Shown here piece after piece: positions 3,354-30,511 of a DNA stretch of 30,511 bases. Numbering within the stretch: position 1 is the stretch's first letter; the number at the start of each line of letters is the position of its first letter. The notes under the pieces are model-generated. The model ran no database searches, was not told where the DNA came from, and worked only from the letters and a program-made list of their open reading frames with translations. Source of the stretch: a virus; IMG/VR virus record IMGVR_UViG_3300046004_001222, positions 1-30,511 of that record; one strand, written 5' to 3'. The translations under genes and the position numbers were made by a program.

Positions 3354-3629
3354 TTATCGAACTACCACCCCGTTTATTTTTCTTTCTTTTGCGTGTTCGA
3401 TCATTAGCCCTATTGCGTCCCCGCCTCCGTCTGAAATTCTGTGAGTTGGTCTAATTTCTTGCGCCGCTCTTTGTAGCTGGATATTTAGCGCCATTACTTC
3501 CTCGTTTGATAATTCCGAAAGGTTGTTAATTTTCTCCGCTCCTACTTCCTCTATTAATTGCGGCAACTCGTTAACTATTCTTTTAATTCCTCTAATTAAC
3601 GGCTTTGTAAATGTTAAATCTTGTTTCAT
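3354..3629 (-). CDS. First gene of an early unit, 91 aa, unknown
   Basis: The start is ATG 3629. The frame stays open up to a TTG at 3662, but those codons lie in the -7 box and operator of the promoter upstream. The protein has an amphipathic helical N-terminal half (IRGIKRIVNELPQLIEEVG) and a helix NEEVMALNIQLQRAAQEIR. It ends with a Gly-rich turn (SDGGGDAIGLMIEHAKE). Not recognised. As the first gene behind a strong-looking regulated promoter it is probably expressed early and highly. Confidence 0.7.
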   Translation of the reverse strand: MKQDLTFTKPLIRGIKRIVNELPQLIEEVGAEKINNLSELSNEEVMALNIQLQRAAQEIRPTHRISDGGGDAIGLMIEHAKERKINGVVVR

Positions 3630-3651
3630 GTTCTTTTGTGTTTCTGTCTTA

Positions 3652-3681
3652 CAAATATACAATTAAATTGTATTAAAATAC
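3652..3681 (-). promoter_or_regulatory. Early promoter with overlapping palindromic operator
   Basis: The minus strand carries TATATTTG (3659-3652, the Bacteroidota -7 box). It overlaps a perfect 17-bp palindrome at 3657-3673, ATACAATT-A-AATTGTAT, with a second nested inverted repeat GTATT-AA-AATAC at 3670-3681. About 36 bp here are identical to the promoter near 10,317. No clear TTG -33 box is seen at the usual spacing. A repressor bound to the palindrome would cover the -7 and spacer, so regulation is very likely. Confidence 0.75.
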
Positions 3682-3721
3682 ATTTTACTTTATTTTTTTT
3701 GAAATATTTTTTTTGACCATG

Positions 3722-10059: not shown

Positions 10060-10294
10060 AACTTAATTTAATTTGTGTTAATACTTGTAAATAAGCTTCC
10101 CAAAGGCGACGCGCTCCACGTCTACGCGTGTCTAGCTCTTTTTTCCATTTTAAAATTTTTCCGCTTTCTGGAAAGTTACATTTCCATAGTTCGATTTGTT
10201 CAGTCAGAAGTTTAACGCGTACGTCCATACCTTCCGCCATACTTAAAAGCTCTTCCGCTTTTTCTTCTAGTTTTAAAATTGCCTCTGTTCTCAT
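10037..10294 (-). CDS. First gene of the early unit, 85 aa, helical
   Basis: The start is ATG 10294. The frame is open to a TTG further upstream, but those codons overlap the -7 box and the transcript leader, as in the twin unit at 3354-3629. The protein is almost wholly helical and charged (ILKLEEKAEELLSMAEGMDVRVKLLTEQIELWK), likely a coiled coil, with a basic RRRGARRLWEAYLQ segment. Not recognised. It lies directly behind the rightmost early promoter. Confidence 0.7.
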   Translation of the reverse strand: MRTEAILKLEEKAEELLSMAEGMDVRVKLLTEQIELWKCNFPESGKILKWKKELDTRRRGARRLWEAYLQVLTQIKLSYETGSNA

Positions 10295-10316
10295 TTTTTT
10301 CTGTGTTTCTGTTTGA

Positions 10317-10346
10317 CAAATATACAATTAAATTGTATTAAAATAC
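10317..10346 (-). promoter_or_regulatory. Early promoter with palindromic operator (twin of 3652-3681)
   Basis: TATATTTG on the minus strand at 10324-10317 overlaps the same 17-bp palindrome, ATACAATT-A-AATTGTAT, at 10322-10338, plus the nested GTATT-AA-AATAC repeat. About 36 bp match the promoter near 3,656 exactly. The terminator at 10376-10405 insulates it from the late region. It heads the unit from 10294 down to 7131. Confidence 0.75.
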
Positions 10347-10375
10347 ATTTTGCAATAAAAAAAATTCATAAAACC

Positions 10376-12064: not shown

Positions 12065-12583
12065 TTATATGAATAAAATGGAATCATTAAACCCCTCATC
12101 CAATTCCGAAGCGTTACAAATGTCCTTTACTTTTGAGCCTTTATTTTCCGCGCTCATTAATACGGGAAAAGTATTTTTATTTTCTACTAACCACTCGATT
12201 AAGTCGCCTTCGTACTGTTTGGAAATTTGCCCGTAGTGATCCATTCCAAATGTCACCTCGTTAAGCGTTACCCCTTCCGAGTTTTCCCCGTTTTGAATTT
12301 GAAGCCCTTTATTTTTTAACTGTCTTGAAAGGCTATAAACTGTCATTGCCGCAGCTCTCCACGCCACGCATGGTTGAATTAATAAAACTAATTCTACTTC
12401 GTCCTCGCTAAGGCTTTCCGCGTTGTATTTTGTTAAAAGGTCTTTAAAAAACAAATTCCCTAAAATTGGTTTTATCCTAATTTCCGCCGCTGGTTTTATC
12501 CATGGTACTATGTCTGTAGCGTCGCAATTCGCCGTTATCGGCGTCTCGTCCTTTAAATAATTCTCTGTAATAAAGTATTTCAT
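12065..12583 (-). CDS. Head-tail connector-like protein (DUF6712-like)
   Basis: 172 aa, just after the portal (start overlaps the portal stop as TAATG). It begins MKYFITENYLKDETPI and has IKPAAEIRIKPILGNLFFKDLLTKYN, then a long helix with LLIQPCVAWRAAAMTVYSLSRQLKNKGL. This helical layout (an IxPILG turn, then a P-x-x-A-W/Y-x-A helix and a NKGLQ stretch) is shared by the connector/adaptor proteins next to portals in Bacteroidota phages. Family assignment is by pattern only. Confidence 0.6.
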   Translation of the reverse strand: MKYFITENYLKDETPITANCDATDIVPWIKPAAEIRIKPILGNLFFKDLLTKYNAESLSEDEVELVLLIQPCVAWRAAAMTVYSLSRQLKNKGLQIQNGENSEGVTLNEVTFGMDHYGQISKQYEGDLIEWLVENKNTFPVLMSAENKGSKVKDICNASELDEGFNDSILFI

Positions 12584-13998
12584 TATTCCCCCGTTTGAGT
12601 GTTTGTACTTGGCGGAGCTGTTACCGCTGGCGCTGTCGTTACTTTATCGCCTCCGTTCACCCTTGGCGCTCCCCCTGCTGTTCTAATTTCGTTCAAAGTT
12701 AAACTTTCCAAGAACTTATTAGCCAGCAATGGCGACATAGATTTTAGATTTTCAAGAATTTTTGTACTATCTGTCCCTTGCTCCACTATTGCGTCGTTTA
12801 TAATCTGGTAATTTTTCAACTTGTATTCAGCCTTCACCCTTGCAATTTTCAGAATTTCGTTAAAAAATTCCTCCACGTTTTCGCGCATTGGTAAAATAGT
12901 ATTTTTTTCTAAGATAATGTAACTTTTTTCTATGTCGTTCCCGCTCCCTAGTTTCCCACTTACTCGAATACCCATTAAAAGCGGATCAATGCAATGAGCC
13001 TTACAAACTTGCGCGTCTATTCTCTCGTCGGTTTGCTCAAAAAGTTTGTCGTTCTGGTTTGTTGGTATCGCTTCAATCTTTGGCAACTGGTCTAAGTTGT
13101 TAGCGAATAACGCGAAAATTCGTCCAGCGTTCGGCGCTCCCTTTGCCCCTTCAATTGTGTTTTTAATTGCGTTTTTCTCTTTGTCTCCGTTTGGTTTTTT
13201 CGGAAACAATAAAGCAAACGAGGGGAAAATAGCGTTTTTAATGTTCGACTTGTGCAAAAGGCTCATTTCTCCCTCTAATTCCATCCAGTTAAAAGCACTG
13301 GAATAGGTAGGAATAGGGTAGACGTCTTGCCCAACACATTCTAATTCATACGGCAAAATAAAAAAGCTCTGCCCTACTTTTTCTTTTTCGTCAAATTTCC
13401 CCGTGTACGGTTTTATTTGTCTAATTTCTGTATTTTGCACCCAGTCGTTACAAACGAAATATAATTTTTTCGAGTTGTTTGTACGTACTTTTTCGGGCGC
13501 TATTCTTGTCGCCTTTTTAAATTCCCCGCTGTCAAATTCTAAAAGCGCGTAAGCTCTATAATGCTGTATTAAATCGCGGGTTATTGGAATACGCAATTTT
13601 TTGATCTTGTTTTTGATCTCGAAGTTAATTGCACGCGCTCGCGTTGCCTCGCTTTGATCTTTTAACACCAGTTCATAACCACCACCCGAAACGGCGTTAG
13701 TTTTAAAATCAATAATAGCACCATTTAATGAACTTGTGTAGTACATTTGGTTAACCATTTGCGGGAAAAGGTTATCTTTTCCAAAACGGATATAACCCTG
13801 CGCGCCTGTGTACGTGTTGTTTATATATGGTAGCGTTAAATTTCCCGCTCCTAAATTCAAAAACGGGCTAGAGTATTTTAATTCACCCGCTTTCATTACT
13901 CCTACTTCTGGCGCTTGCTCCGCTTGTGGTGCTGGCTCTTCTGTATAAAGTAAATATTCTCTCTCCTTTTTCGGAAACCAATTTGATAAAACCCCCAT
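12583..13998 (-). CDS. Portal protein
   Basis: 471 aa, typical portal length. The protein holds the dodecameric ring at one capsid vertex through which DNA is pumped. Visible portal-like parts include an N-terminal clip/stem start (residues 50-125), a central alpha/beta part with LEFDSG and RIAPEKVR, the stem helices (about 250-285, WMELEGEMSLLHKSNIKNAIFP), and a C-terminal crown (about 370-410) rich in Glu and Lys. The last 40 residues are Thr/Pro/Gly-rich and disordered. It sits downstream of the head genes and directly before the connector gene. The call rests on layout and size; no catalytic motif is expected. Confidence 0.8.
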   Translation of the reverse strand: MGVLSNWFPKKEREYLLYTEEPAPQAEQAPEVGVMKAGELKYSSPFLNLGAGNLTLPYINNTYTGAQGYIRFGKDNLFPQMVNQMYYTSSLNGAIIDFKTNAVSGGGYELVLKDQSEATRARAINFEIKNKIKKLRIPITRDLIQHYRAYALLEFDSGEFKKATRIAPEKVRTNNSKKLYFVCNDWVQNTEIRQIKPYTGKFDEKEKVGQSFFILPYELECVGQDVYPIPTYSSAFNWMELEGEMSLLHKSNIKNAIFPSFALLFPKKPNGDKEKNAIKNTIEGAKGAPNAGRIFALFANNLDQLPKIEAIPTNQNDKLFEQTDERIDAQVCKAHCIDPLLMGIRVSGKLGSGNDIEKSYIILEKNTILPMRENVEEFFNEILKIARVKAEYKLKNYQIINDAIVEQGTDSTKILENLKSMSPLLANKFLESLTLNEIRTAGGAPRVNGGDKVTTAPAVTAPPSTNTQTGE

Positions 13999-14007
13999 AG
14001 CCTTAAA

Positions 14008-14433
14008 TTATTTGTAAACTTGCGGAGCTTCTGAACTCTGCCCGCTTATTTGCGTGTCAATATCTAAACCAACAACCGCGCGCCCCTCTTCGAGAACTCG
14101 CCCCGTTGTCTCTTCAATTGTGAAAACTAAATTTTCACTTTCAAAAACCTTATAACTATATTGCCCTTTCTCCAGTTTTAAATGTGCTTTGCCTTCCTCT
14201 AAAGTTTCCCAGCCGTTAGCTGTTTGCTCGTCTCCACTTTCTCCCTCTACCAGTTCAAAAATATTCATTCTTTGAGGATAGCCCGAAACGTCTGGAGCTG
14301 CAAAAAAAATAAGCCCTTTATCTTTGTCAAATTCTGGGTAAAGAACCAATAAGTAAAACGGGTCTGTAATTCTTGAACGTTCCGCCGCTGTTACTGGTAC
14401 TTTATTAATTTGTCCTTTTTCTATGTAAATCAT
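14008..14433 (-). CDS. Conserved Bacteroidota-phage structural protein, unknown role
   Basis: 141 aa. It starts MIYIEKGQINKVPVTAAERSRITDPFYLLVLYPEF and contains FELVEGESG, then a beta-rich stretch ending KGQYSYKVFES and GRVLEEGRAVVG. The pattern (KGQxNxVxVTxxE, YLLV, GQYxYKVFES, VLEEGRAVVG) recurs next to portal or tail genes in Flavobacterium and related phages, where its role is unknown. The Gln/Ser-rich end looks flexible. It lies between a terminator and the portal gene. Confidence 0.65.
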   Translation of the reverse strand: MIYIEKGQINKVPVTAAERSRITDPFYLLVLYPEFDKDKGLIFFAAPDVSGYPQRMNIFELVEGESGDEQTANGWETLEEGKAHLKLEKGQYSYKVFESENLVFTIEETTGRVLEEGRAVVGLDIDTQISGQSSEAPQVYK

Positions 14434-14456
14434 TTTCGAACCTTTTTTAACCTCAA

Positions 14457-14484
14457 AAACCCGTTAAATTTACTTAACGGGTTT
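14457..14484 (-). terminator. Rho-independent terminator after the tail-tube-like gene
   Basis: An 11-bp stem (AAACCCGTTAA 14457-14467 with TTAACGGGTTT 14474-14484) has a 6-nt loop and ends in a short T-run on the minus strand. It would attenuate transcription between the tail-tube-like gene and the 141-aa gene, and may keep the preceding mRNA abundant and stable. Confidence 0.7.
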
Positions 14485-14502
14485 CTTTATTAACTTTAAT
14501 TA

Positions 14503-15021
14503 TTAAGGCGCTGGAGCTGCTTTAATTTGTGCAAAAACTGCCGCGTCCATTTGATACATTGAATACTCATTTTCTGCCATGAACGAAAGATCGTATTTTG
14601 ACCCCTCCGCCTTGTTTTGTCCGAACCCTCCGACATTTCCAGAAAGTTGCGCGTTCTCAATATACCAGCACAAGCCGTTCCCGTCCTTAAACGCAATCGC
14701 TAAAAGCCTTTGTCCTTCGCCAAGAATTTTAATTTTTGCGGACTTTTCTCCCTCTCTTCGTTTTAAAGATAAAGTAACTTTTGCCTCGTGGTAGTTGCTC
14801 CCTTCGTCTAAGTTAATTTTTTCCTCCTCTTCGACTTTGATAGCGTTACGCTTGAAAGCAATGTTTAAAAACGCGCTTTCGTGAACTGCCGCTGTAACTT
14901 TATGAGTTGCCGCGTCTTTGGTTACTGTGATGCTCGCCTGATCGTTTACTAAAAACTCAGTGCCGCCCCCTAGGTTGTTTGTACAACCAATTTCAATTTC
15001 TTCTAAATCTCCACAAGCCAT
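14503..15021 (-). CDS. Probable major tail (tube) protein
   Basis: 172 aa. It begins MACGDLEEIEIGCTNNLGGG and contains AFLNIAFKRNA, a run of strands, then CWYIENAQLSGNVGGFGQNKAEGS and a closing LSFMAENEYSMYQMD. This beta-rich layout, with Gly-rich loops and one extended helix, is what tail tube proteins show, and similar proteins follow the capsid gene in flavobacterial phages. It lies alone between two hairpin terminators, as expected for a protein needed in many copies. The alternative is a decoration protein. Confidence 0.6.
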   Translation of the reverse strand: MACGDLEEIEIGCTNNLGGGTEFLVNDQASITVTKDAATHKVTAAVHESAFLNIAFKRNAIKVEEEEKINLDEGSNYHEAKVTLSLKRREGEKSAKIKILGEGQRLLAIAFKDGNGLCWYIENAQLSGNVGGFGQNKAEGSKYDLSFMAENEYSMYQMDAAVFAQIKAAPAP

Positions 15022-15045
15022 GATTAAAAATTTTAAATGTTATCT

Positions 15046-15070
15046 AAAAAAGGGGGCTATTCTGCCCCCT
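15046..15070 (-). terminator. Rho-independent terminator after the capsid gene
   Basis: A 7-bp G/C stem (AGGGGGC 15051-15057 with GCCCCCT 15064-15070) has a 6-nt loop and is followed by six T on the minus strand. It lies between the capsid and tail-tube-like genes, so downstream expression needs read-through or a promoter I cannot see. Confidence 0.8.
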
Positions 15071-15092
15071 CTACTTTTTCCCTCTGGAACTG

Positions 15093-16280
15093 TTATACTA
15101 CTTTGTAGTAAACAATTTCCTCGTGGTTTACCAGATAGAAACCTACTTTTAAATTCGCGCGCGTTCTAATGATCGGCTCGTTTGTAGTGTCTCCAAGGTT
15201 AACCGCTTTCAATTGCTCCCCGTCTGTTGCTCCGTCGAACGCGTAAATTAAGTTACTTGCTCGCGTCATTACCATAGTATTATCCGAGATACCGTCAGCA
15301 ACCACGATTTTAATATCTAAGAACGTCAACGCCAAAGAAGTCGTAATATAGCTTTGTGTATTTGCCGAAGCTGTCGCAAGTCTATACAAATCCGCCGCAA
15401 CTGGCGACATATACAAACGTAACAAATCTTTACGGCGTCTAATACGTTTCGGCAATTTTGCGTAAACCTTATTCAACTCCGTTAAAATTGTATCAACTGC
15501 CAAAGCTGTCGACCCCGTTACGTACTCACATCGCGTTTGATAGCGCTTTCCTCCGTTTGTTACTGTAATTCCTGTAACCGTAATGCTCGGTGAACTTCCA
15601 GAAGTTGCAATTGTAAACGTTGCCCCAGTTCCTCCGCCTGTGTTCGCTAACGTTAAAACTGTCGGAGCTACTGAGTAAGCCCCAGCCGTCAACACGTCCA
15701 CGCTTTGAATAACACCTTTACGGCTTACATTTACTTTTAAAGTCGCAGCCGTCCCCGTTCCGTTTAAAGTCGCAGTAACACCCAACGCCGCAGCGTCTAA
15801 CTTAACTTCGTAACCGTCGCACAAAGCTAAAAACTCTTCGTCTTCTGTAAACGTTCCGCCTGTGTCTCCCTGCCAGCGGATTAACTCTACTTCCTCTTTA
15901 ATTTCGCTCGCCATTTCTGCCCAGTAGTAAGACATAAAAGACGCAATTTCAAACGAGTTTGAACCCTGCGCCATTTGTGCGCTAACAAAACTTTGCTCAA
16001 TATCAAACTGACAAACCTGAGCCATTGCACTAACCGCGCAAACGTCAATCTCTACCGCGTCTAACGTTGAATCTGTCGCAGCCCAAGCACACCCGCTTTC
16101 TGCTAACATCGAAGCAAACATTACAATTGCAATTTTCACTTTGCTTTTAATGTTTGGTAAAACTCGGTAGTTATCCGCCACTTCTGAATCCAGATAAGCC
16201 TTAGCGAAAAACTCTTGCGGGTTTGCTTGTAAGATAGCCCCGTCTTGTACATTCAAATCAAATCTTAGTTCTCTTTCCAT
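15093..16280 (-). CDS. Major capsid protein (HK97-type, with inserted beta domain)
   Basis: 395 aa, directly after the protease/scaffold gene, which is the normal place for the capsid protein. It has an N-terminal arm, then helices with MSYYWAEMASEIKEEVELIRWQGD (the long spine-helix region), strands and a C-terminal A-domain-like part (MSPVAADLYRLATAS, LDIKIVVADGISD). Residues about 166-250 differ in style: Gly/Thr/Ser-rich and beta-strand-rich, with APTVLTLANTGGGTGATFT and ITVTNGGKRYQT. Without this part the length is about 310 aa, normal for an HK97-fold capsid protein. The insert probably projects from the shell. An acceptable alternative is a large decoration protein. Confidence 0.75.
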   Translation of the reverse strand: MERELRFDLNVQDGAILQANPQEFFAKAYLDSEVADNYRVLPNIKSKVKIAIVMFASMLAESGCAWAATDSTLDAVEIDVCAVSAMAQVCQFDIEQSFVSAQMAQGSNSFEIASFMSYYWAEMASEIKEEVELIRWQGDTGGTFTEDEEFLALCDGYEVKLDAAALGVTATLNGTGTAATLKVNVSRKGVIQSVDVLTAGAYSVAPTVLTLANTGGGTGATFTIATSGSSPSITVTGITVTNGGKRYQTRCEYVTGSTALAVDTILTELNKVYAKLPKRIRRRKDLLRLYMSPVAADLYRLATASANTQSYITTSLALTFLDIKIVVADGISDNTMVMTRASNLIYAFDGATDGEQLKAVNLGDTTNEPIIRTRANLKVGFYLVNHEEIVYYKVV

Positions 16281-16330
16281 TTTTTGAAAAACTTTAATTT
16301 TTAAAAATTCCCTCTTTTTTTCGGCGGGGC

Positions 16331-17755
16331 TTAGCCTTTTCTTCCCAGTTTTGACAATAAATCAATTCTGTTTAATTCCTTTTCGTTTGCAGTATAAGCA
16401 AGTTCCGACGCTGCGCCGCCCGCTGGAGCTTTCCCCTCGTCTTCCGCTTCCTCTTCTTTGCTTACTTCTGAAAGTACGGCGCGCATTGCGTCGTCGATCA
16501 TTGGTTGCACTAATTCAGTAACTAACGCTTTCACGTCGTCCGCTGTTAATGTTTTTGCCTCTGGCGTCCCTGCTTCTTTTTCCGCTTCTTCTGGCGCTGG
16601 CTCGTCTGCCATTTCCTCCTCCGCTGCTGGCTTCTCGTCTTCTGGCTTTTTTCCCTCTTCTGTTTCTTCTGCCATTTCTTCCTCTGCCGCTGCTGGTTTT
16701 TCTTTTTCCTCTACTGGAACGCCATTTTTAAAGACGTAAATTTTACCGTCAATTTCGTGTTCTCCGTCTGAAATTTTTATATCCATGCTTTTTGGTTTTA
16801 AATTTTCTTTAACTTTCAATAGTAATTGTTCAAACTTCTTAGTACTGTTCAAAATCCATTCTAAACTGTCCGCCTCTTCCGCTTCTATCCACTTAAACGC
16901 TTCGTGTTCGTTTGATAAAATAGGCTCTTTTTCTGCCTCCGCTTTAAAATAGTGGCTTTTTGTCCCGTCTTCGTTTTGGATAGTCTCTACAAATTCAATG
17001 TTTTGTACTTCTATTCCTGTCTCCTCGAATGTTTCGCGCGCCGCTGCCTGTTCTGGCGTCTCTCCGTCTTCAATTTTCCCGCCTGCAAACCCCCATTTTC
17101 CAGCCTCGAACCCGTCGCCGCTTGCTCTTTTGATTACTAGGAATTTTCCCGCCTTGTTTCTTATAATTGTGTCCGCGTATTCCTGTCCCGTTTGATCGCT
17201 AAACATTTCCTCCAGTCCAAAAAAGCCCTCAATAGAAAAGCCTGTTTTATCCTGTTCGAGTAATTCGTTAAAATAGTCCTCGTCTGTAATTTGAGCAACT
17301 GCGAAAAGTGTACCTTTCGGACATTTCACCCCGTAAGTAATAAAACTTTTGTCTGTGTTCGGGTTTTCAACTATCCAAATTTCCAATAAATAAGCTGGTA
17401 CAATTTCTTCGGAGTGTTCCAAGTTAAAGAAGTTCTTTAACTTGTCTGGGTTGCTCATTAAGTGAGCGTGAAATTTTTGTATCTCTTCCGCTGTAAATTC
17501 CGTTTCATAGGCTGGCTCTTTTGTCCCGTCCTCTAAAATTTCTTCCTTTCGATAAGATACCATAGGAATCATTAACGGCGCGGCTAGTCTCATTTTAGCG
17601 TTATCCGCAAAAAATAACTCTTTTGAATCCTGCGAAAACATTAAGCCTTTTATCTTAACGGCTGGGCGTTGGGTAAATGCTGTTTTTCTCCACGTTAACG
17701 CCTTGCCGTCCACCTCGTCCCCTTCAATTTTTGCTAAATATCTTTTTAAAGCCAT
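16331..17755 (-). CDS. XkdF-like prohead protease with internal Nudix domain and scaffold tail
   Basis: 474 aa in three parts. Residues 1-185 resemble the XkdF putative serine protease: FFADNAKMRLAAPLMIP, a helix before H114 (NLEHS), YLLEIWIVE and GFSIEG with S174 as likely nucleophile. Residues 193-310 are a complete Nudix hydrolase. The box runs G226-x5-E232-x7-R240-E241-x-x-E244-E245-x-G247-I248, and EHEAFKWIEAEE follows as usual. Residues about 350-445 are Pro/Ala/Glu-rich with repeated KPAAEEEMA-type units, a scaffold-like region, and then NEKELNRIDLLSKLG. Prohead protease plus scaffold fused to a Nudix enzyme that normally cleaves nucleoside diphosphate derivatives is unusual. The gene precedes the capsid gene. 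Confidence 0.85.
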   Translation of the reverse strand: MALKRYLAKIEGDEVDGKALTWRKTAFTQRPAVKIKGLMFSQDSKELFFADNAKMRLAAPLMIPMVSYRKEEILEDGTKEPAYETEFTAEEIQKFHAHLMSNPDKLKNFFNLEHSEEIVPAYLLEIWIVENPNTDKSFITYGVKCPKGTLFAVAQITDEDYFNELLEQDKTGFSIEGFFGLEEMFSDQTGQEYADTIIRNKAGKFLVIKRASGDGFEAGKWGFAGGKIEDGETPEQAAARETFEETGIEVQNIEFVETIQNEDGTKSHYFKAEAEKEPILSNEHEAFKWIEAEEADSLEWILNSTKKFEQLLLKVKENLKPKSMDIKISDGEHEIDGKIYVFKNGVPVEEKEKPAAAEEEMAEETEEGKKPEDEKPAAEEEMADEPAPEEAEKEAGTPEAKTLTADDVKALVTELVQPMIDDAMRAVLSEVSKEEEAEDEGKAPAGGAASELAYTANEKELNRIDLLSKLGRKG

Positions 17756-17801
17756 TGTAAAACCTTTTACTAAAATTGTTTTTTTTCGCTTCCCTGTCCT
17801 T

Positions 17802-18581
17802 TTACTCTTCTAACTTAACTTCGTTTAACATCGTTTCGAAGTTAAAAACTAGAGTTAGTTTTAAGTCTGTTACCTCTTCGAACTTGGTTAAATCTTTGTT
17901 ACATAAACGGTAAATGAATACCTCCCAGCTCCATTTCTTTAACGCTTCTTTTTGCTTTTCCTTTTTAGCCTCTTCAATGGTTAAGTTTTCCAGCTCCTCG
18001 CTTTCCTCGTTGTCCATTTCGTCCTCCTCGTCCTCGTCCTCACCTTCAAATAATGGCTTTCTTTTCTTTATAAAATTCTCTCTAAATTCTAAATAGTCCC
18101 TTATTACCCTTTCCGCTAAATCAACGGGAGCGCTTTTAAAAATTTCCGTTCGCTCCGCAACGTTCACGGCTCTATACGGTTCTATTACCAACTCGCCCCA
18201 CTCTCCCGCTTTTGTCTTTCTGTATAGGATCGCTAGAATTTTCGCCGCGTTTTCTCTAAAGTCTTTCGCAAAGGTTCGCTCTAAATCTATGAACTCCCCT
18301 AATCTTAAATCCTTAAACCCTTTAAACTTAAAGCCCTCGAAGTCTTCCGCCGTCTTTCTTGGAATAACGCCTTTTTCAATCCAGCGCGTTTTCTGTGTTA
18401 ATTGTGTAAGCTGTTCTACGTCTTCTATTTCTTCCTCTATTTCTTCCTCGTCTTTGTCTGTCAATATTGCGAGGCGTGAAATCTGAAAATCGAAAATACT
18501 ATCAAAACTTACTTTTTTTAACTCTTCTAACTCGTTGAATTTATCTATCGTTATTTCGCTCCAGTCTTTAGGCGTTTTCAT
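17802..18581 (-). CDS. Possible tail-assembly protein, 259 aa
   Basis: ATG 18581 lies inside the end of the 212-aa gene (14-nt overlap in another frame). The sequence is helical and acidic: IDKFNELEELKKVSFDSIFDFQISRLAILTDKDEEE, then LGEFIDLERTFAKDFRENAAKILAILYR (a capsid/tail-chaperone-like helix), an acidic patch of Glu and Asp at about 190-215, and a Lys-rich helix. Two overlapping small acidic genes near the tape measure are the usual position for tail-assembly chaperones. No heptanucleotide slip site is obvious at the overlap. Role by position only. Confidence 0.5.
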   Translation of the reverse strand: MKTPKDWSEITIDKFNELEELKKVSFDSIFDFQISRLAILTDKDEEEIEEEIEDVEQLTQLTQKTRWIEKGVIPRKTAEDFEGFKFKGFKDLRLGEFIDLERTFAKDFRENAAKILAILYRKTKAGEWGELVIEPYRAVNVAERTEIFKSAPVDLAERVIRDYLEFRENFIKKRKPLFEGEDEDEEDEMDNEESEELENLTIEEAKKEKQKEALKKWSWEVFIYRLCNKDLTKFEEVTDLKLTLVFNFETMLNEVKLEE

Positions 18582-19206
18582 CTTTTGAATTTAAAACTTC
18601 TTTCATTTGCTCCGCTTCTTTTTCGTTTGCGTTTTCCAGTTCTTTAGCTCCAGAAACTAGAATTTTCTTAGCTATCAACATCGCATAAGGAACGGCAACA
18701 CTCCCCTTTAATTGCTTTCTAAAAATGTTCGCTTTGTTTTTGATATGAGCGTTCGCGTAGTGTTCGGCGTTTGTTAGTTCCGTGTCCTTGAAAATTACGG
18801 CTAACATTTCCGCCAAATACTTTTTATTATTTGCTTTTGCGTACTTCTCAATAAGTCGCCCGTCTTTTACTGGCAGTTTATACTCTTCACCTTCAAACGC
18901 TTTGTAAGTCCTTCCGTTTAATTCAAATTCCTTAATCATTTCGTAAGGCTCTGGAACAAAAGAACACCATTCTTTAACGGCTTTCTGGAACTCTTCTAAC
19001 TCCATTTCCTCCACAACTCCCAAAGGAAGCCCCGCCGCTTCTAAAACGTCGCAATACTTCTCTATTTGCGTCTCATATTTAAACGCCCCTTTTGTGCTGT
19101 TTGGTAACGCTATTTCTTCCGACAAAATCGCGCTCACTCTTTCGAACATTTCTAACGACATTTCCGCCGCGCAGTTCATAACCTCGTGTCCTTTTACAAT
19201 TACCAT
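18568..19206 (-). CDS. Possible tail-assembly chaperone, 212 aa
   Basis: ATG 19206. Mostly helical and acidic, with CAAEMSLEMFERVSAILSEE, VVEEMELEEFQKAVKEW, FELNGRTYKAFEGEEYKLPVKD and a Lys/Glu-rich end. The middle part (NGRTYKAFEGEEYKLPVKDGRLIEKY) resembles small modules found in tail chaperones of Bacteroidota phages. It lies between the gp10-like gene and the 259-aa gene. Not recognised by motif, so assigned by layout. Confidence 0.45.
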   Translation of the reverse strand: MVIVKGHEVMNCAAEMSLEMFERVSAILSEEIALPNSTKGAFKYETQIEKYCDVLEAAGLPLGVVEEMELEEFQKAVKEWCSFVPEPYEMIKEFELNGRTYKAFEGEEYKLPVKDGRLIEKYAKANNKKYLAEMLAVIFKDTELTNAEHYANAHIKNKANIFRKQLKGSVAVPYAMLIAKKILVSGAKELENANEKEAEQMKEVLNSKDENA

Positions 19207-19232
19207 TTTAAACTGTTTTTGTTATTGTTATT

Positions 19233-19565
19233 TTATTCCCCGTTTAGTGTTACTACTATTTTCGGTTTAAATTTTACCCCCCAATCTACTAGTGGGTATT
19301 GTTGTTTTTTTATATTGAGCCATTCCATGTAAGCCCTCGAAACTATGTTTTGATAATACACAAAGTCTTCTAAATTATAGTCATTGTATAAATATTTTAT
19401 ATAGTCCACCGCTTGCACGTCAATTTCTAAAACTCCGAACTCGTCAATATTTGCCGTTACCTCTACGCTTTCCACAAGTAACCCCGTGTCAATAAGTCCC
19501 CGCGCTCGGATCAAACGCCTTAATGAGTTACGCCAGTCCCTTTCAATTGATTTTAAAACTCTCAT
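19233..19565 (-). CDS. HK97 gp10-like head-tail joining / tail completion protein
   Basis: 110 aa. The pattern LRRLIRARGLIDTGLLVESVEV, then strands and YIKYLYNDY, is typical of the HK97 gp10 family: a GLIDTGxL turn after an amphipathic helix, followed by a YxxYLxxG-like strand. These proteins act at the head-tail junction. ATG 19565 overlaps the stop of the long terminator-like gene as ATGA. The size is slightly under the family norm. Confidence 0.7.
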   Translation of the reverse strand: MRVLKSIERDWRNSLRRLIRARGLIDTGLLVESVEVTANIDEFGVLEIDVQAVDYIKYLYNDYNLEDFVYYQNIVSRAYMEWLNIKKQQYPLVDWGVKFKPKIVVTLNGE

Positions 19566-21154
19566 ATCCCTAACTCCGTATCAGTTATATATCTACACGG
19601 AATATGTTTACCCGCTGCATAACTCATGTTTCCATTTGTCACAATGCAATAATTATAGTTTTGATAAACGTAAACCGCCGAGGCTGGTGTTATTGGTGTA
19701 TTTGTACACGTCCAAAAGTCGTCTGCCAAAGTAATGTTAAACGGCGCATAGTTTAATAATTTGCCCCCACTAGGCACGCCATTATATAAAATACTTTCTT
19801 TCTGTTTTTTGTTCGGCACGTACCAAGCACTAAAACCCCCGTATGTTGCCGCGTGCGCATTTAAACAAGCGTTTGCAAGTGTCGCCCCGTTTGTTGTATA
19901 GTTTCCTTTGTACCATGCTAAACGGCTCGTTCCGTTGTACGTTGAATGGTCTAAAATAATATTGTTAGCGTACGTTTGACCGCCTAACGTATCTGTAAAG
20001 CGGTTTGTATTTCCAAACTTATTATTCCCCGCCAGCGTGAAAAAATCCACTAAGCGCCCAAATTCATTATACCCATCATCATAAGGCACTTGACTTGCTG
20101 TCTGTCCCGTCTTCATTACGTCAGCAGTTGCGTAAGTTGGTAAACTGCAAGCACTCGCAATAATATCAACACCCGCCGCAACTGTTAACGTATTCCCGTC
20201 CGAATCTGTGAACGAAATATCTGGCGCTGTTAAATCAATATCTTTTAAAGCTGGTTTTGTTTGTTCGTCTAAAACTGTCCCTAGTGAATTAAATAATGTT
20301 GCCGTAATGTCTGGTACTGTTTTTGTTTCCTGTGCTTTTAAACCAATTGAAACGCTGTTATCTGTGTTTTTTATTGTCGCGTCCTGTATTGTTTTGTTTA
20401 GCGTTCCGCCGCTTACAACTGTCCCGCCGTACAATTCCGCCCCCGCTGTGTCTTTTATTGAGTAGCTGGCATCTGGCGCGGTTAAATCGCCGCTCTCTCC
20501 CGCTGCAATTTCCAAAGAATCTAAAACAAGCCCGCCAGTATCTTTTAATACTGCCGTCGCTGGGTCACATTCCCCTACATTTACTGGTATTTCTTCCGAG
20601 CCTCCCGCTGGAATTTCCCCACTCGCTAAAGTGTTTCCGTTTTGATCTTTTATTACATATACTGCTGGCTCGCAAAACTTCTCAAAAGGTACTATTTCCC
20701 CCATTGGAATTTCGCAAACACCATAACCCGCAACCGTAACCGCTAAAGTCATTTTGTTGCCCGCTGCATAATCTAACAAACTATTATTTAACGGTTCTAA
20801 ATTCCCAATTTGTTCAGCTTCGAAGCTCCAGTCACTCCCGTCGTTTATGAATAAAAGTAAATCATTCAGCAATAACGCCGTGTCGCTTACAATTTCCAAA
20901 ATGTTTTCGCGGTCTTTCTGTATAATATCAACGCAATAAATATCTAGGTTAAATGTGTTTAGCTTCGCGCCCTCTTCGTTGTTTCCAAGTGTCGAAGGTA
21001 GAGGCACAATAAAGAAAGCGGGGTATCTTTCCGACTTAGTTAAAACGTTATCAATTTGTTCGTAAAAATCAAACCCCACCTTTTTAATGGCTGTGTGACT
21101 GTTAGCGAACTCTTTAATGTATTCGACTATTTGTAAAAAACTTTTTCTTTCCAT
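19562..21154 (-). CDS. Tail-terminator-like protein fused to a DUF1566/lectin-like receptor-binding domain
   Basis: 530 aa. Residues 1-150 look like a tail terminator: FLQIVEYIKEFANSHTAIKKVGFDFYEQIDNVLTKSERYPAFFIVP, LDIYCVDI, then SDTALLLNDLL. Residues 165-335 hold repeated strand modules with Gly turns (YVIKDQNGNTLASGEIPAGGS and similar). Residues 345-530 match the DUF1566/FISUMP-type lectin-like domain: GQTASQVPYDDGYNEFG, FGNTNRFTDTLGGQTYANNIILD, WYVPNKKQKESILYNG and LNYAPFN, then FWTCT and CRYIT. Such ends bind receptors or carry variable surfaces. A terminator with a receptor-binding tail is unexpected. It stands next to the tape measure and gp10-like genes. Confidence 0.65.
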   Translation of the reverse strand: MERKSFLQIVEYIKEFANSHTAIKKVGFDFYEQIDNVLTKSERYPAFFIVPLPSTLGNNEEGAKLNTFNLDIYCVDIIQKDRENILEIVSDTALLLNDLLLFINDGSDWSFEAEQIGNLEPLNNSLLDYAAGNKMTLAVTVAGYGVCEIPMGEIVPFEKFCEPAVYVIKDQNGNTLASGEIPAGGSEEIPVNVGECDPATAVLKDTGGLVLDSLEIAAGESGDLTAPDASYSIKDTAGAELYGGTVVSGGTLNKTIQDATIKNTDNSVSIGLKAQETKTVPDITATLFNSLGTVLDEQTKPALKDIDLTAPDISFTDSDGNTLTVAAGVDIIASACSLPTYATADVMKTGQTASQVPYDDGYNEFGRLVDFFTLAGNNKFGNTNRFTDTLGGQTYANNIILDHSTYNGTSRLAWYKGNYTTNGATLANACLNAHAATYGGFSAWYVPNKKQKESILYNGVPSGGKLLNYAPFNITLADDFWTCTNTPITPASAVYVYQNYNYCIVTNGNMSYAAGKHIPCRYITDTELGI

Positions 21155-27683: not shown

Positions 27684-29027
27684 TTACATGGTTAAATAGC
27701 TATCGTCTGCCTCTTCTAAAAAGAAATACATTAAATAGGCTAGCGCGTCGCTATAATCTGGGGAGCGTCCAATTAGCTTTTTAACTTCCGCTTTCGTTGT
27801 CATACATACGCGCCCGTCCCTCTCTACTTTTTCCCTTCTTAAAATTTGTAATTCCTGTGTTAACTTTTCGGCTTGCTCGTCTGCAATTTCATTAACCGCC
27901 AAACGCTCCCCATTTACCACCTCCGCCAGTTTGAAATAAAGCTGGGTTTTTAGGTTCTCAAAATTTTGATCTAGTAACGCCCTTGAATTATTTACTATCG
28001 AAACCGCGTTTTCAATTCCTAACATTTCCAATTGATCCACAACCCCGCCGCCTATTCCGTCCGCGTCTATTGCTATATCGTACTCGTCCACCCCGTAAAA
28101 GTCCGCCAGCTTTTTAATAGCCTTCGCGACAAAGTGGGTCTTTTGTTTTTCAATCTCAATTATCTTAATAACCTCCAGCGTGTTTGTTGAAACTATTATA
28201 ACGGTCTTATCCTTTCCCAGCCTAGCAATGTCCGCCGCAATAAAGCAACGCCCGCCCCTTTTGTATTTCCGCTTTCGGTTAATTGTTTCCTGTATTCTTA
28301 CAAAATCAAACATTGATAACTCGTCGGAATATTCCCACAACCCTAATTTTAATCTGTTACGGCTCACCTTGTCCAACCTATCCAAGTTCGAAAGGTAATG
28401 TTTTGATATAAAGTTATTGTCGTTAGAAAGTGCCTGTATAAATAAACGGTACTCCAAAAGTTTTCCATCTATAAACGGTTTGTAAAACGTATTATAAACC
28501 CAGTTTTTCGCAGGGTTGCAGCTCATAAAAATTTTGGGGCTTATTCCGTACACGTCTAAATTGTATCTTATTCGAGACATTACGACGTTCTTAGCTTTTT
28601 CCGTCACTTGGTTTACCTCGTCAATAAATGCGCCCGTAATTTCCAAAGAACCCAAACTGTCAAAATCTGGGTCGCTGGGGTACTGGAATAAATCTTTTAA
28701 AATTATCTCGCTACCGTTGTAAAATCTAATTTCATTTATTTGCCCGTTGTACTTGTAATCTCTCCCCTCTTTCAATTTGTACGCCTTGCATACTTGCCAG
28801 AATGTTTTTAACGTCGTTTGTTTTAACGCTAACAACTTCGCCCGCCCTATCAAATAGCGAGTTTCTGGAAACATTAAACACATTAACAAAACCCACGCGC
28901 AACCTACCCAGCTTTTTCCACCTCCAGCCGCGCCACCATAAAGAACCTCCGAAACATTAATTTCGTAATTCATCAAAGCGCGTAAGGCTTCCTTTTGTTT
29001 TGCGTGAAAATCTGGTACAATTTCCAT
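27684..29027 (-). CDS. terL: Terminase large subunit
   Basis: 447 aa, the normal TerL length. Walker A is GGAAGGGKS (31-39). Walker B lies in LEITGAFIDE (D136, E137), followed by the coupling segment around SCNPAKNW (169-176). The nuclease domain shows D266 (IAADIARLGKDKT), D321/D323 (DIAIDADGIGGG) and D427 (YSDALAYLMYF), the acidic residues that cut concatemers in RNase H-fold terminases. It packages DNA through the portal. A small gene separates it from TerS (2 bp from its stop). Terminase_3/6-like by order of motifs. Confidence 0.95.
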   Translation of the reverse strand: MEIVPDFHAKQKEALRALMNYEINVSEVLYGGAAGGGKSWVGCAWVLLMCLMFPETRYLIGRAKLLALKQTTLKTFWQVCKAYKLKEGRDYKYNGQINEIRFYNGSEIILKDLFQYPSDPDFDSLGSLEITGAFIDEVNQVTEKAKNVVMSRIRYNLDVYGISPKIFMSCNPAKNWVYNTFYKPFIDGKLLEYRLFIQALSNDNNFISKHYLSNLDRLDKVSRNRLKLGLWEYSDELSMFDFVRIQETINRKRKYKRGGRCFIAADIARLGKDKTVIIVSTNTLEVIKIIEIEKQKTHFVAKAIKKLADFYGVDEYDIAIDADGIGGGVVDQLEMLGIENAVSIVNNSRALLDQNFENLKTQLYFKLAEVVNGERLAVNEIADEQAEKLTQELQILRREKVERDGRVCMTTKAEVKKLIGRSPDYSDALAYLMYFFLEEADDSYLTM

Positions 29028-30257: not shown

Positions 30258-30511
30258 TTACTTGGTTAACTTACTAATCAATTGAGCTTTTGTCTCTTTT
30301 GACTTGTACGGAATACCTAAAGCCTCTAAATGCGCTTGCAATTCGCTAACGCTTAACTTTTTTAAATCCGTTACTCCTGTGACTTTCTCTTCCGTTTCTG
30401 GAGCTGCTGGCGCTTCCGTTTCTACGTTTTCGCTTCCGTCTTCAATTTCAAAAACAGTTGACGTTTTAGGCTCTTCCGTCGTGCTTTCTTCCGCTCCGCC
30501 TTCCGTTTCCT
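30258..30511 (-). CDS. Acidic HeH/LEM-domain protein, C-terminal part (continues from base 1)
   Basis: Residues 110-187 of the protein that starts at 329. The codon at the join is GCG (Ala110), made from bases 2 and 1 and 30492. After a second acidic, Thr-rich linker (EESTTEEPKTSTVFEIEDGS) comes the internal repeat APAAPETEE. Residues 151-187 form a small helical domain, TDLKKLSVSELQAHLEALGI then SKETKAQLISKL, closely resembling the HeH/LEM or SAP-like helix-extension-helix fold that binds DNA or other proteins. TAA at 30258-30260. A DNA-binding end near the terminase genes would suit a packaging or head-accessory role, which is inference. Confidence 0.8.
   Translation of the reverse strand, partial: ETEGGAEESTTEEPKTSTVFEIEDGSENVETEAPAAPETEEKVTGVTDLKKLSVSELQAHLEALGIPYKSKETKAQLISKLTK
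30385..30415. repeat. 31-bp direct repeat within the HeH gene (copy of 97-127)
   Basis: Exact match to 97-127; it encodes the same APAAPETEE linker just before the HeH-like domain. Confidence 0.85.
30493..30511. repeat. Terminal direct repeat, right copy (identical to 1-19)
   Basis: The last 19 bases equal the first 19. This is the partner of the left copy and the basis for reading the window as a closed circle. Confidence 0.9.

Follow-up and report, generated by a model that had tools for sequence, protein, structure and literature searches.

A single polypeptide that joins a head maturation protease of the XkdF type, a complete Nudix hydrolase domain and an acidic, scaffold-like tail is encoded in the 30.5-kb stretch of viral DNA analyzed here (30,511 nucleotides, hereafter the window). 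The open reading frame lies on the minus strand at 16331-17755 and comprises 474 codons with an ATG start and zero internal stops; a sequence-only reading of this DNA, which gave no strand, had rightly placed the three parts in one polypeptide. We put it at slightly better than even that the protease-scaffold carries an accessory, MutT-like Nudix enzyme as a passenger in a tailed phage of the Bacteroidota-infecting type. By analogy, the Nudix domain is probably cargo of the virus head, because similar fusions arose separately in several other phages.

Nearly all long genes of the window are on the minus strand, and the fusion gene occupies a head operon. The first gene downstream of it encodes the major capsid protein (15093-16280, minus strand; PHROG 1623/11320), which aligns with gp02 of Nonlabens phage P12024S. 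A 172-aa head/neck protein (14503-15021, minus strand) follows in the place of P12024S gp03, in a gene order common to P12024S and the contig L221 described below, and then come a 141-aa protein and the portal protein (12583-13998, minus strand; PHROG 11226, E 1e-23), 2.3 kb from the fusion. The phage can be assigned to a Bacteroidota-infecting kind because its terminase large subunit (27684-29027, minus strand; PHROG 2) shares 45% identity with the Flavobacterium phage 11b terminase and its portal matches those of Nonlabens phages.

Several other features of the window were recorded. The capsid protein contains about 90 residues (roughly 165-255) that are absent from the P12024S capsid protein, apparently an inserted domain. 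Between the tape measure and the head genes, positions 19562-21154 encode a 530-aa protein with a weak, sub-threshold match to an Lcl C-terminal domain, possibly a receptor-facing decoration. A 66-bp direct repeat (91%) is found in two gene-start regions (3622-3686 and 10286-10351); within it lie the palindrome TACAATTAAATTGTA and a minus-strand motif, TATATTTG, which resembles Bacteroidota -7 promoter elements, and the two copies are perhaps a pair of repressor-controlled promoters. A perfect 31-bp direct repeat lies near both ends of the record (97-127 and 30385-30415).

The protease part spans residues 1-189 (17189-17755, minus strand). Residues 83-178 match the Peptidase_S78_2/XkdF family (PF14550) at 25.6 bits, a marginal score against the gathering cut-off of 24.0 (E 1.3e-5), and the assignment is backed by PHROG 24921 and by relatives that score 37-63 bits. 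The predicted catalytic histidine, H114 (codon at 17414-17416, minus strand), is kept in 61/61 aligned protease relatives, all distinct sequences from viral contigs, and the predicted catalytic serine of the GFSI motif, S174 (codon at 17234-17236, minus strand), in 58/58 of those with a residue there (3 have gaps). The description of this part as an XkdF-like protease with H114 and S174 is therefore borne out by the Pfam match and by conservation, which extends in the same relatives to E125, W127, D135-K136 and G148. The AlphaFold2 model of the protease (pLDDT 78) gave zero significant matches with Foldseek alone. With VIA-align, the T4 gp21 prohead protease came first among solved structures, with a Z score of 7.8 over 113 residues at 2.8 A, which is under 8 and hence no proof alone; the next chain scored Z 3.5. 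The predicted structure agrees with a maturation protease. The protease part had no tblastn match in isolate phages. The fusion, the portal and the capsid protein, each used as a single query against viral contigs, retrieved the sister contig only, and a scan of bacterial genomes returned only an unrelated Nudix.

XkdF proteases were also met in other company. PHROG 1530, named a DNA methyltransferase, matches them over its positions ~220-365, and this match hints that fusions of a methyltransferase to the protease are a further case resembling cargo. On a separate contig (L174:698-1723), an XkdF protease is followed by a cysteine-rich segment (ERTCPICVTLHN) with the look of a MuF-type domain, which makes this protein a candidate for a protease-MuF fusion.

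The Nudix domain occupies residues 195-299 (16859-17173, minus strand) and matches Pfam NUDIX (PF00293) at 79 bits against a gathering cut-off of 21.1 (E 4e-22). Its Nudix box (residues 226-247; 17015-17080, minus strand) reads G226 K I E D G E232 T P E Q A A A R240 E241 T F E244 E245 T G247 I. It departs from the consensus GX5EX7REUXEEXGU only in having T242 where the first "U" is expected; the metal-binding and catalytic positions are all present, and the seven residues singled out by the sequence-only reading (G226, E232, R240, E241, E244, E245 and G247) check out one by one. That reading had also proposed structure prediction of the three parts, of which the Nudix and protease parts were modeled. 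The Nudix fold was affirmed (pLDDT 93): the model matched 601 PDB entries at E<=0.001, and among the matches listed the top ones are Nudix proteins; the protease gave the T4 gp21 match at the Z score quoted above. Among solved structures, the Nudix model comes closest to MutT, to Ap4A/Ap6A hydrolases and to BdRppH, an RNA pyrophosphohydrolase. By its Pfam score, box and predicted fold, the domain is a member of the Nudix superfamily, with predicted hydrolysis of NDP-X compounds. The catalytic residues of both enzymes are present, and the Nudix is predicted to be catalytically competent.

On specific Nudix models, the domain scored 59.9 bits on the MutT 8-oxo-dGTP diphosphatase model (TIGR00586; equivalog cut-off 97.9) and 27.6 bits on the model for cellular NudE, as distinct from T4 NudE (NF008736; equivalog cut-off 169), and on these scores it is assigned to neither equivalog. 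Since all of the specific models fell below their cut-offs, no substrate is named for the enzyme. Genes of known NAD or ADP-ribose function were not found among the window ORFs scanned. The sequence-only reading had named loss of the box in relatives as a sign against it, but the box is well kept: it is intact in the window and, by a strict pattern, in 26/28 listed head-linked or multidomain phage Nudix proteins, and the other two deviate only near the end of the box.

The remainder of the chain is the acidic tail, residues 321-474 (16334-16795, minus strand). These last 154 residues are rich in A, E and P; residues 345-450 contain 33% D/E, 8% P and 19% A with a net charge of -24, and the short, slightly basic end beyond them has a net charge of +1. 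The sequence-only reading had called this part an acidic Pro/Glu scaffold. The acidic composition and the position are as described, and tails of like place and composition occur in relatives that have no Nudix domain; the scaffold role is a putative one, assigned by composition and position rather than by homology to a proven scaffold.

Among the 61 protease relatives, tails are either scaffold-like, as in the window, or short, and no Nudix domain was detected in any of them, by length or by HMM. The nearest by protease sequence (37%; G001) has no Nudix in the corresponding ORF, nor anywhere else on its 31.8-kb record. Because such close relatives do without it, the Nudix domain is probably an optional accessory and not an assembly part. 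A requirement for Nudix in head assembly is thus unlikely, given that the relatives keep protease and tail without it, although several of their records are fragments. The suggestion that the enzyme might act on the capsid interior fares no better, since in the closest relatives heads are built from the same protease-scaffold gene lacking any Nudix part. An enzyme linked to assembly, as the sequence-only reading also envisaged, is the natural reading of a Nudix domain within the protease-scaffold chain of a head operon.

Recurrence of the fusion was sought by scanning viral contigs with the Nudix alignment, and many of the nearest viral Nudix domains in that scan proved to lie within large proteins. 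A search for the same fusion in other phages had been advised, and it succeeded in PHROG 6216 and in the contig proteins L221/L302, L245 and L264. The L221/L302 protein (25.5-kb contig, IMGVR_UViG_3300020045_008227) resembles the window's in combining XkdF protease, Nudix and an acidic coiled-coil tail and in its gene order (tape measure, capsid, 189-aa protein, portal), but its Nudix sits within an N-terminal protease loop rather than after the protease. Its sister L304 (67% in the best segment) encodes the same protein minus exactly the Nudix domain, which makes a clean presence/absence pair. The L245 and L264 proteins have an N-terminal Nudix far upstream of the XkdF domain. PHROG 6216 is a Nudix-DUF2213 protease-tail arrangement in one polypeptide, found in at least 10 isolate phages, among them Klebsiella phages Chronis, RothC and RothD, Pantoea phage PdC23, five Yersinia phages and Shewanella phage QDWS; ten isolate phage records match over at least 80% of the query, with QDWS, a more distant case, in addition to these, and the viral-contig proteins L231 and L281 are also members. 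Rac-SA53 and pPE4 have a protein homologous to the PHROG 6216 protease-tail with no Nudix match.

Looser associations were found as well. In Chryseobacterium phage MA9V-3 and in L228, a head maturation protease gene of PHROG 1028 has an unfused Nudix gene immediately upstream, and in L225, L226 and L005 a large Nudix protein is encoded at that place; portal-Nudix fusions occur in Bcep1, Mufasa8 and L268. Phages also have many Nudix genes of this superfamily that stand alone. A 1094-aa protein on another contig (L222:2885-6169) combines zeta-toxin-type kinase, Nudix, 2H/Acb1-like and ADP-ribosyltransferase (ART) domains; the bacterial host is the probable target of this multidomain protein, and such company of a related Nudix domain fits a host-directed role.

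The origin of these fusions was addressed with a tree of 74 Nudix domains, the depth of which is poorly resolved. AU tests rejected a single clade both for the Nudix domains fused to XkdF, four in number (p 0.0002), and for the full set of eight fused to proteases (p 3e-97); a clade of the window and L221 alone was rejected only marginally (p 0.033, few columns). The tested groups were named after the tree was seen, and therefore the weight rests on the strongest values. One ancestral Nudix-protease fusion is rejected by these tests, the window-L221 pair alone being marginal, and Nudix was therefore joined to head proteases more than once. Furthermore, the attachment sites vary: after the protease in the window, inside the N-terminal protease loop in L221/L302, and at the N terminus in L245/L264 and PHROG 6216.

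The simplest way to model the carrier role is by a sequence of packaging and self-cleavage. The scaffold tail would pull the fusion chain into the assembling prohead, and after assembly the protease would cleave its own chain and free the Nudix domain. The freed enzyme could then stay in the head and enter the next host with the DNA, or it could be left in the producing cell. Once there it would hydrolyze a host compound linked to a nucleoside diphosphate, for example a dinucleoside polyphosphate, the 5' end of an RNA, a nucleotide that has been damaged or a signal used in defense. Many phages degrade their protease-scaffold and clear it from the capsid, and therefore packaging is no proof of retention or injection.

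A trivial explanation is that the fusion arose by chimeric assembly or a frameshift, an origin that the sequence-only reading had itself raised, or that it is a decaying gene. The second contig (IMGVR_UViG_3300046028_005524; L016) carries the fusion ORF unchanged, while elsewhere its genes have diverged by 1-4% at the nucleotide level from those of the window, mostly at synonymous positions, and this recurrence between diverged flanks rules out an assembly or frameshift artefact. With the active sites of both enzymes intact and analogous fusions present elsewhere, we regard this whole class of explanation as exceedingly improbable. The contigs are 100% identical over window positions 14008-19565, which cover the 141-aa, 172-aa, capsid, fusion and tail-side genes, with 1-4% differences on both sides; this block points to a recent exchange of the head module or to a shared assembly stretch, and because it is identical in both contigs the pair is uninformative about selection acting on the fusion. 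Alternatively, the ORF may contain a nested gene, in which an internal start at M184 (~17206), at the end of the protease, yields abundant Nudix-scaffold protein that lacks the protease; Nudix would then be a high-copy core component, with the same cargo role as in the carrier model. Many XkdF relatives have a methionine just past the GFS motif, where M184 lies, and M184 is preceded by GGAGG in the window and its L128 counterpart by AAAGGAG. The GGAGG is, however, separated from the ATG by just 2 nt, such sites are dispensable in many hosts of this kind, and chance GGAG is expected from glutamate codons, so that these weak indications leave the nested start a quite improbable arrangement.

Phage Nudix enzymes are common and may act in the producing cell. 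This one could thus work only there, late in infection, as a cleaner of the nucleotide pool or a breaker of signals, with the fusion setting the time and amount of expression and with packaging and injection playing no part. The nearest solved folds (MutT, the Ap4A/Ap6A hydrolases and BdRppH) are housekeeping-type enzymes and many stand-alone phage genes belong to the same superfamily, both of which favor such a role; it gives no account of why Nudix was repeatedly fused to components of the prohead (protease, portal or MuF) instead of being kept as a separate late gene, and we consider it rather unlikely. A different proposal makes Nudix a sensor or structural module, in which nucleotide binding tunes protease activation or scaffold size and catalysis is secondary. 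The location of Nudix inside or adjoining the protease, as in the protease loop of L221, would suit this idea. Yet relatives assemble without the domain, the catalytic box is intact in almost all fused copies, and a tuned allosteric module would hardly tolerate such variable position and orientation, all of which make a sensor improbable. More tentatively than the carrier model for this one phage, and with somewhat less than even expectation, we suggest that the protease-scaffold is a general carrier of enzyme cargo: unrelated phage groups would have independently attached Nudix at different permissive sites, with assembly loading the enzyme and maturation freeing it for the next cell, where a host nucleotide signal would be removed. 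If the cargo reading is true, counter-defense enzymes would be loaded by way of a protein that is cut up in capsid maturation, tying loading and release together in one chain. The repeated gain of Nudix and the clean sisters that lack it provide natural controls, and the cultured phages PdC23 and QDWS carry a Nudix-protease-tail protein, making packaging, cleavage and function directly accessible.

The internal head proteins of phage T4 provide a working analogue for the proposed cargo. In that system, the prohead protease cuts off a targeting segment and the proteins are ejected with the DNA; the window fusion is no member of the T4 family. Literature searches on XkdF and scaffold returned nothing relevant, and no experimental test of any protease-Nudix fusion was found in the literature searched. 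Nonlabens phage P12024S gp01 and other XkdF protease-scaffold proteins of PHROG 24921 share with the window the protease family, the scaffold-like tail and the neighboring capsid, 172-181-aa and portal genes but, unlike the window protein, have no Nudix. Portal-Nudix proteins of Burkholderia phages Bcep781/Bcep1 and Arthrobacter phage Mufasa8 likewise bear an intact Nudix on a head protein, the carrier there being the portal and not a protease-scaffold. Closer in plan is PHROG 6216, which also unites Nudix, a head maturation protease and a charged scaffold-like tail in a head operon before the capsid gene; its protease is DUF2213 and not XkdF, its Nudix is N-terminal, and that Nudix falls elsewhere in the tree.

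The sequence-only reading knew of no described system of this form, a view contradicted by these three-part proteins and by Iyer et al. 2022 (PMC9503650), whose section 3.5.2 describes phage Nudix domains fused to MuF, portal and a capsid-processing serine peptidase and suggests packaging and injection. The general kind is therefore already known, and the likeness extends to both the placement of Nudix on a capsid-processing protease and the proposed packaging and injection. The domains treated in that section are T4 NudE-like, whereas the window Nudix scores low on the cellular NudE model and is nearer to MutT-type folds, and the order protease-Nudix-scaffold is nowhere spelled out in the text. 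What is new here is the placement of Nudix between an XkdF protease and a scaffold; a second Bacteroidota-type phage with Nudix in a protease loop, together with a close sister cleanly without it; further Bacteroidota-type phages in which Nudix and protease are adjacent genes, with Nudix upstream; and the AU tests that reject a single origin of protease-fused Nudix domains.
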